A stretch of DNA of 64,000 nucleotides from Dyella lipolytica. Lineage in GTDB: Bacteria > Pseudomonadota > Gammaproteobacteria > Xanthomonadales > Rhodanobacteraceae. Under the pieces are notes generated by a model, which was not told where the DNA came from, made no database searches, and worked only from the letters and a program-made list of their open reading frames with translations. How positions within the stretch are numbered: position 1 is the stretch's first letter; the number at the start of each line of letters is the position of its first letter. Where the stretch lies: assembly GCF_030160075.1 (NCBI RefSeq), contig NZ_BSNQ01000009.1:492295-556294 (forward strand). The letters are read 5' to 3'. This document shows positions 15,082 to 16,229 of this stretch, piece by piece. The translations under genes and the position numbers were made by a program.

Positions 15082-15345
15082 GATCTCTCACTAACTACGT
15101 GGCATCAGGTACCCGCGCTTCCCCCCTGTTATCCAGGAGCGGCTTCCCCCAGGTTCGCCGCGGCGCGGATGGAGAGAAGGTAACGCGATTGGGGCGATAC
15201 AGCAAATGCGGCGTGCTTCACGGCATGGCGTGGAAATTTGCTGCTAGGGGGCTTTGATCTATAGCGAAGGCCGTTATCGGCACTGCCAGCACGGGTCACG
15301 AGGGTGCCCGCTTAGATGTTCGATTCCGGAGGCCGGAAACGAAGC

Positions 15346-15367
15346 GTCCCGGCATGGAAGCCGGGAC
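15346..15367 (-). terminator. Hairpin downstream of MetJ-H1 gene, possible terminator
   Basis: A perfect 8-bp stem (GTCCCGGC, loop ATGGAA, GCCGGGAC) lies about 75 bases past the MetJ-H1 stop. Reading on the minus strand it is followed by GCTTCGTTT, only a weak T-tract, so termination is plausible but unproven. Confidence 0.45.
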
Positions 15368-15385
15368 GAAACGCTTTCGAAGCAC

Positions 15386-15441: not shown

Positions 15442-15732
15442 TTACTTCTTGGCTTTGGAGGTCTTGGTGGCCTTCACCACCTTGGCAGCCGCGGCTTTCT
15501 TGGCAGTGCGCTTGCGCGTTGCCTTCTTCGCGGCCTTCTTTACACCAACGCGCTTGGCGGTGGTCTTCTTCGCGCCTACGCGCTTTGCAGCCTTCTTGGC
15601 GGTCTTGCGCACAGTGCGCTTCTTCGCGGTGGCCTTCTTGGCGACCGGCCGCTTCTTGGCGGCGACTTTACGGGTGGTTTTCTTGGCGGCTTTCTTAGCC
15701 GATTTCCTAGCAGTTTTCTTGGCAGTGGCCAT
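15442..15732 (-). CDS. Possible internal translation product: free H1-like tail
   Basis: In the MetJ-H1 frame, Met79 is preceded by GAGGAG at 15745-15750, 12 bases upstream of ATG 15732. Starting here gives a 96-residue, highly basic Lys/Ala/Arg protein ([18 protein letters not shown]...) with the composition of a stand-alone H1-like nucleoid protein. The spacing is longer than ideal, so this is an inference from one ribosome-site match. Confidence 0.35.
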
Positions 15733-15966
15733 AGTTCGTCTCAGCTCCTCATCAGTTGGCAGTGGTTGCCCAGTAAAAGCGTGAAGGAACGCCTCAACCA
15801 GCAAATCGCTGTTCGTGGCGTGCCTTAAATTGTTCACCTGGCGGTAGGTGCGTAAATCCGAAAGCAGTCGCAGTACGTGCATTGGAATCGAAACAGTGAT
15901 CTTTCTCACTGCGCTGGCTTTTGCGCCATGTTCGACGTAAGGCTTAATGAATTTCGATGCCGCCAT
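15442..15966 (-). CDS. MetJ ribbon-helix-helix repressor fused to a histone-H1-like tail
   Basis: A 174-residue protein in two parts. Residues 5-76 are clearly the methionine repressor MetJ: KITVSIP is the DNA-contacting beta strand (Lys22 and Thr24 match the E. coli contacts), followed by [20 protein letters not shown] and HAFTGQPLP, almost identical to E. coli. The usual MetJ C-terminal helix is absent. From residue 79 the protein is a Lys/Ala-rich repeat of AKK, AAKK and TAKR units, like histone H1 or AlgP. MetJ represses methionine genes with S-adenosylmethionine as corepressor; the basic tail should bind DNA without sequence specificity. An internal ATG (15732) with GAGGAG upstream may also make the tail alone. 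Regulation of the metB gene at 52712 is possible but not shown. Confidence 0.9.
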
Positions 15967-16229
15967 TGGTACCGTTCCCCGTTATATGGTGCGAAAGCTA
16001 TTCCTGAATATTTCAACTGTCAAATGATTTTCGCCATGAAATCAATCCCTTCGACCCGGAACCCTGCCCGCAACACTCATCTCGAAGGCTTCATGTCAGT
16101 TGCAAAAATCAATTCGACGAGCCATCTAAACATCCAAAGCGCTCGCTTCGCGCATTGCCAAAAAAAGCCAAAAACAAGCTAAAAAATGTAATTTTTCTCA
16201 TTCACGCTGATACACGCAATGTATCAATA

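Follow-up and report, generated by a model that had tools for sequence, protein, structure and literature searches.

A MetJ repressor with a histone H1-like tail in Rhodanobacteraceae and a conserved nucleotide element at the fusion junction

Why would a methionine repressor carry a tail of the kind that makes up histone H1-like proteins? The question is raised by one open reading frame (174 aa, 15442..15966, minus strand) in the window, the 64,000-nucleotide stretch of a Dyella lipolytica contig analysed here. Its first part is, by sequence, a MetJ ribbon-helix-helix core (residues 3–77, 15736..15960, minus strand), which matches PF01340 over residues 5–83 (E 2.9e-35, 120.6 bits in Pfam; cut-off 25) and the NCBIfam MetJ equivalog NF003622 over residues 4–85 (125.2 against a cut-off of 110), and aligns to PDB 1cma with E 2.3e-30. 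By sequence the protein belongs to the MetJ family, a membership that rests on these curated-model matches together with the MET-box operators described below, and it is the sole MetJ match in its genome. The first-pass annotation described the likeness to E. coli MetJ as almost residue for residue, which is accurate from the ribbon-helix-helix to the GQPLP motif (40/50 identical over residues 21–70) and overstated for the N-terminus (51/72 over residues 5–76 as a whole). The remaining 96 residues, from Met79 onwards, include 43 Lys or Arg, 26 Ala and no Asp or Glu; such a Lys/Ala-rich, low-complexity basic chain is characteristic of H1-like proteins, and is seen also in the bacterial H1-like protein AlgP of Pseudomonas. 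A Pfam scan of the whole fusion protein reported no H1-type family, and the E. coli-type C-terminal helix is absent by sequence. The AlphaFold2 monomer model is poor (mean pLDDT 52.7, pTM 0.23) and gives no information on the predicted ribbon-helix-helix fold. A terminator-like stem-loop lies 3′ of the gene (15345..15368, minus strand), but it is weak, as two were found versus 2.2 expected in shuffles.

An obvious concern is that such a gene results from a frameshift or an assembly error, or that it represents two separate genes and nothing more. Both are ruled out by the family: in all 101 complete Rhodanobacteraceae loci, the window's own included, the frame is open from core to tail with no stop or frame break between them. 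These loci span 25 numbered genera, and every one has an in-frame basic tail. The fusion proposed in the first-pass annotation, with the MetJ core running directly into a Lys/Ala-rich tail, is therefore real and kept among near relatives, and its conservation supports the description of a sequence-specific repressor fused to a tail of the kind that binds DNA nonspecifically. Tails extend 42–317 residues past GQPLP and carry a net charge of +14 to +101 in the 101 loci; the net charge of 19 tail-less MetJs is −9 to +1. The longest tail (317 residues) and three of 189–192 residues all occur in genus g7 (L016, L026, L108, L109). The core was read in 102 Rhodanobacteraceae loci, of which 101 are complete. 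Three loci were left out, namely L042 (altered core sequence within the motif used), L051 (truncated at a contig end and outside the 101) and L160 (partial), and short frames in G311 and G380 reflect contig ends. L154 and L049 are probably one genome, and named and numbered loci overlap.

How far does the fusion extend? MetJ was found in 96 of 299 genomes sampled across the order, comprising 76 of family f1, 13 of f9, six of f12 and one of f8, and in five of 369 genomes sampled across the class, two of which were again f1. Family f1 is Rhodanobacteraceae, with Dyella and Rhodanobacter relatives from a protein search falling among its rows in the tree; a census of the family gave a MetJ match in 227 of 233 genomes. 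None of the 24 listed genomes of f2 in the order sample, which is probably Xanthomonadaceae, has MetJ. The available part of PMC6230763 reports metJ missing from X. campestris 8004, and the portion seen of Leyn et al. 2014 (PMC4239095) gives no MetJ regulon for their four Xanthomonadales genomes; Xanthomonas is counted among bacteria with an E. coli-type system in an excerpt of PMC7270179. A search of MetJ matches for a basic extension across the order recovered it throughout the complete Rhodanobacteraceae loci and in none of the 16 MetJs read from f9, f12 and f8, so that the suggestion of a fusion widespread in Xanthomonadales does not hold: it was found only in Rhodanobacteraceae, and the sister-family MetJs that were read are tail-less.

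The tail-less proteins also bear on how the fusion arose. It had been proposed that the tail directly replaced the normal C-terminal helix, but the 16 MetJs of f9, f12 and f8 that were read end 10–26 residues past GQPLP, with neither a tail nor the E. coli C-terminal helix. The missing helix is thus better seen as a lineage trait. The f12 loci L058–L061 were not caught by the motif, leaving two f12 sequences that were read; the other f12 matches were assessed by frame length (80–88 aa). On the core tree f12 pairs with f1 (support 100/94), from which we infer that acquisition of the tail probably dates to the base of Rhodanobacteraceae. A separate H1-like ORF of 235 aa with the start MATTRKSAAKK lies elsewhere in the same genome (L218 1063..1770, minus strand, contig C3); it is similar to the first part of the metJ tail and could be its donor or a partner, suggesting that a gene of the H1-like type was available for joining.

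The junction between core and tail is conserved at the nucleotide level. The codons of residues 63–77 (E. coli 64–78) form a 45-nt element (15736..15780, minus strand) in which synonymous codon identity reaches 0.857, compared with 0.37–0.60 in codon windows ending before position 64, among them an equally conserved stretch of protein, residues 46–60, at 0.59. These values come from 31 representatives (24 genera and seven named loci, with g17 excluded). The element codons GGG, CCA, ACT and AGA are near-invariant, while third positions elsewhere are GC-rich. Allowing up to three mismatches, its 33-nt core (15745..15777, minus strand) is present in 223 of 233 family genomes and in none of 126 genomes from elsewhere in the order. 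The ten genomes that lack the core are six without a MetJ match, the g17 genome (G236), and G438, G439 and G442, in which a MetJ match is present and the element match absent. Tail-less MetJs have nearly the same residues in other codons, with 12–20 mismatches to the 45 nt; 100 Rhodanobacteraceae loci have 0–7, and g17 has 11. The 10-mer CCACTGCCAA occurs as a direct repeat, once within the element (15756..15765) and once just after the tail ATG (15719..15728, both minus strand). Several candidate structures were tried and dropped: g6 and g14 have lost a small hairpin (GGCA-ACCAC-TGCC) seen in the others, a hammerhead-like core and a sigma-54-like palindrome, compared by eye with consensus sequences, are broken by variants or spacing, and programmed frameshifting, an idea based on AGA keeping a +1-frame stop, is ruled out by CTT AGA in L030 and L155.

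The best reading of the element is an internal start from which the tail may also be made on its own, as a free H1-like protein. The element terminates at the tail ATG, holds a Shine-Dalgarno (SD)-like hexamer and pairs with the anti-SD above the shuffle mean, which together favour this reading. The proposed nested ORF would begin at Met79 and run in the tail frame for 96 aa (15442..15732, minus strand), and its ATG is present in 100 of 101 complete loci. The hexamer GAGGAG lies 12 nt before it in the window (15745..15750, minus strand) and is present in all 100 loci with the ATG; these Glu-Glu codons are GAG GAG in 100/100 loci with the Met, while Glu codons in the core are GAA 192 times and GAG 167 times. 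A nested gene should show synonymous constraint on a conserved SD and on its start codon, and this pattern is found here. Predicted anti-SD pairing exceeds the mean of synonymous shuffles in 31/31 representatives, even if 59% of shuffles match or beat the native pairing in L153 and L155. The site has a score of −8.8 kcal/mol, where the metJ start has −6.5, and 14 of 319 internal ATGs in the window's ORFs pair as strongly. The first-pass annotation overlooked the element and the likely internal start, such that "fusion" is likely only half of the description. The fused form would be needed too, as the frame stays open from core to tail in all 101 loci.

Some features fit an internal start less well, and they give substance to a rival account in which the fusion is the only product and the element is read by something else at the DNA or RNA level, thereby regulating the fused protein. 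It might be the target of a small RNA or of an RNA-binding protein, a place of ribosome pausing or of processing, or an internal promoter. The SD accounts for 6 of the 45 conserved nucleotides, conservation extends 45 nt upstream and far past an SD, with about 30 conserved nt that it leaves unexplained, and the invariance of codons such as GGG and CCA suggests that the sequence itself matters. The spacing in most loci is 12 nt, longer than the usual 5–9 nt, and the start region is more open than in synonymous shuffles in 19/31 representatives (0.446 versus 0.429), with no clear gain. On the other hand, the element stops at the ATG, and 100/101 loci retain GAGGAG along with the ATG; both have changed in the exception, the single g17 genome, where ATG becomes GTG, GAGGAG becomes GACGAG and element codons are altered while the fusion is retained. 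GTG could still start translation there, so the internal start is perhaps lost in this one genome. Nor do the expected signatures of another reader appear: there is no Rfam match over the element with E up to 5, which speaks against a known RNA family, no sigma-70-like promoter within it by consensus scan, and ordinary folding (z 0.03), which speaks against a special RNA structure. We regard a fusion-only gene with a differently read element as possible, though on the unlikely side.

If the core is to act as a repressor it should have operators. A triple MET-box pattern (≤3 mismatches) occurs in 91/97 family genomes, compared with 8/97 for the reversed control. Among 151 genomes of the order sample, MetJ-positive genomes have a site in 38/42 cases (control 7/42) and MetJ-negative genomes in 10/109 (control 15/109), three of the ten being incomplete f12; across the order sample, sites and MetJ presence are associated with a Fisher p of 7e-22. 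Three of five g7 genomes are without a triple match at 3 mismatches. The best array in the window's genome, GGACGTTTAGACGTCTAAACGTAA, lies between the genes for homoserine O-succinyltransferase (metX) and cysteine synthase A, each of which scores higher than its curated cut-off, with the triple box at C3:2325737. Among 70 site loci, a non-random set (40 of them hand-picked, 39 of these with ≤2 mismatches and one with 3), the site is flanked in 29 by a metX-like gene pointing away from it, as judged by BLAST clustering with one member profile-checked. A TTGAC −35-like element is at the boxes or within a few nucleotides of them in 29/29 metX loci. An array also precedes metJ itself (≤5 mismatches, at −162 to −196) in 46/102 family loci and 16/25 genera, with 0/102 in the control, and is absent at this threshold in genus g8 (0/11) and in the named loci (0/7). 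The window has a degenerate array at the corresponding position (16120..16143, minus strand, 6 mismatches). Rhodanobacteraceae MetJ therefore still looks like a MET-box regulator.

At metX the boxes are accompanied by a second element. A SAM-I riboswitch lies just downstream of the boxes in all 10 metX loci scanned with Rfam, and all 10 Rhodanobacteraceae genomes searched were positive; the array is 27–40 nt before the riboswitch in nine of the ten, the exception being G031. The riboswitch is also found in 9/10 f2 genomes, and was absent in the one f12 and one f9 genome searched. L123 (1349..1524) and other metX loci display a MET-box array, a sigma-70-like promoter and the riboswitch in tandem. 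These stacked elements amount to two predicted SAM-linked controls at one gene.

Glu39 and Arg42 of MetJ are named as SAM partners, with mutation predicted to lower corepression, in the part of PMC2775130 available to us. Both are kept in 78/101 family loci, but the aligned positions in the window protein, and likewise in its genus, are Leu and Tyr. Replacement of Glu39 by Leu, combined with Tyr, His or Glu at position 42, occurs in 21/101 loci (three named loci and the genera g1, g9, g11, g18 and g22), and the tree (support 91/92) is compatible with Leu39 having arisen once; separately, g17 has His42 and L159 has Gly39. Leu39/Tyr42 is, as far as the alignment tells, a departure inside the MetJ family. 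The loss of these reported contacts makes SAM dependence doubtful in the window's clade, and with it the description of the window protein as SAM-dependent.

A second rival builds on this observation, proposing that the tail supplies the positive charge that SAM would otherwise contribute, so that MetJ is SAM-independent at least in the Leu39 clade and the riboswitch does the sensing. The single origin of the Leu39 variants, the persistence of MET-box arrays in the Leu39 genera, the SAM-I riboswitch at metX and the electrostatic model of SAM action, as cited in the accessible text of PMC2775130, are all compatible with such a repressor. Yet the tail coexists with intact Glu39 and Arg42 in the 78 loci noted above, Glu59, Phe65 and Leu70 are kept in 102/102, and work cited in the same portion of PMC2775130 indicates that added positive charges could not replace SAM. 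We consider this proposal unlikely. A last rival, highly improbable, takes the tail for an inert basic extension on which selection does not act and puts the junction conservation down to chance or codon bias: low-complexity tails do vary in length, as these do, but they are in frame and basic in every complete locus, and synonymous conservation peaks sharply at the junction rather than in the equally conserved residues 46–60.

On balance we lean towards a model in which a tailed MetJ on MET boxes, an internal start for the free tail, a riboswitch tandem and altered SAM sensing all play a part. The fusion, its conservation, the operator-like arrays, the riboswitch tandem and the junction constraint are read directly from the DNA. 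From these we propose that MetJ acquired its long polycationic H1-like tail, presumably a disordered one, in an ancestor of the family, after loss of the E. coli-type C-terminal helix. The ribbon-helix-helix core would bind tandem MET boxes at metX, at other promoters and, in many genera, at its own gene, while the tail would add nonspecific electrostatic affinity for DNA in cis. Additional nonspecific affinity is what its charge makes plausible; the spreading along DNA, bridging of sites or coupling of nucleoid packing to methionine state suggested in the first-pass annotation would go beyond that. The conserved junction start (element, GAGGAG and ATG) would also yield a free H1-like nucleoid protein. 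At metX, repression would act jointly with the riboswitch in the leader, and MetJ's own sensing of SAM has probably changed in the clade to which the window belongs. Whether this amounts to one gene for two chromosome proteins, a nested H1-like protein and a tailed repressor that in one clade may have shed its SAM contacts and left sensing to the metX riboswitch, we judge to be a little short of an even bet.

Comparison with characterized systems places the fusion between several of them. It resembles E. coli MetJ (PDB 1cma, NF003622) in its ribbon-helix-helix core by sequence, its MET-box arrays, a homoserine acyltransferase target and probable autoregulation, and differs in lacking the C-terminal helix, in its polycationic tail, in Leu39/Tyr42 in the window's clade, in the junction element, and in the SAM-I riboswitch that shares the metX leader. 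The Xanthomonas met operon has the same riboswitch family as the Rhodanobacteraceae metX leader (available parts of PMC6230763 and PMC7270179), but the strain reported as lacking metJ, X. campestris 8004 (PMC6230763, in part), contrasts with the tandem of MetJ operator and riboswitch in Rhodanobacteraceae. Unlike bacterial H1-like proteins such as AlgP (PMC9239181), the tail here is joined in frame to a sequence-specific repressor. Mycobacterial HupB (PMC5676037) and actinobacterial TopA with its lysine repeats (PMC7398561) likewise combine a DNA-binding protein with a basic C-terminal tail, which HupB needs for nucleoid association, but they are an HU protein and a topoisomerase rather than operator-specific metabolic repressors. 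A further parallel, and with HupB a precedent for basic tails on DNA-binding proteins, is PgFur of Porphyromonas gingivalis, a specific regulator with a Lys-rich C-terminus important in vivo, although that end has 13 residues, the fold is different and a nested start is not mentioned in the available portion of PMC6613475. The same portion reports that the Lys-rich end is dispensable for operator binding in vitro while needed in vivo, and the former counts against our preferred explanation of the MetJ tail.

In Rhodanobacter sp. R12, MetJ has been called a putative repressor, with the word histone absent from the part of PMC12146267 available. We found no description of a MetJ-H1 fusion in the literature covered on MetJ with histone H1-like proteins, Xanthomonadales, Xanthomonas, Stenotrophomonas or Rhodanobacteraceae, a coverage mostly outside subscription journals and partial for the sources reached. 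If the model is correct, a metabolite-linked specific repressor carries a chromatin-type tail throughout one bacterial family, the locus is a clear case of a nested gene detected by synonymous-site conservation, and methionine control and the supply of a chromatin-like protein are locked together. MetJ with a recognisable operator set is also extended to a family outside the six groups of Leyn et al. 2014, as far as the excerpt of PMC4239095 shows, a single promoter combines a MetJ operator with a SAM-I riboswitch, and the effect of a polybasic tail on a classic, structurally solved repressor becomes testable.

The MET-box survey produced further observations. Three MET-like sites in the window's own genome (L120, L121 and L122, each with 1 or 2 mismatches) are found within a coding frame, next to a likely terminator and ahead of a hemagglutinin-like ORF; they are treated as possible chance matches, since the 3-mismatch count in this genome is 17 against a control of 14. 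A recurrent site in genus g5 (L139, L140, L143, L173) has no recognised gene pointing away from it, and two ORFs of L139, the one of the four that was scanned, gave zero NCBIfam family matches. Genes beside the arrays at L126, L134, L144, L170, L131 and L202 encode a CysB-type regulator, a 2-isopropylmalate synthase and an aspartokinase (one of each profile-checked), and may point to a wider regulon. Two f12 genomes with a short MetJ (G011 and G021) contain 13–17 triple MET-box matches per strand, more than the listed Rhodanobacteraceae genomes.
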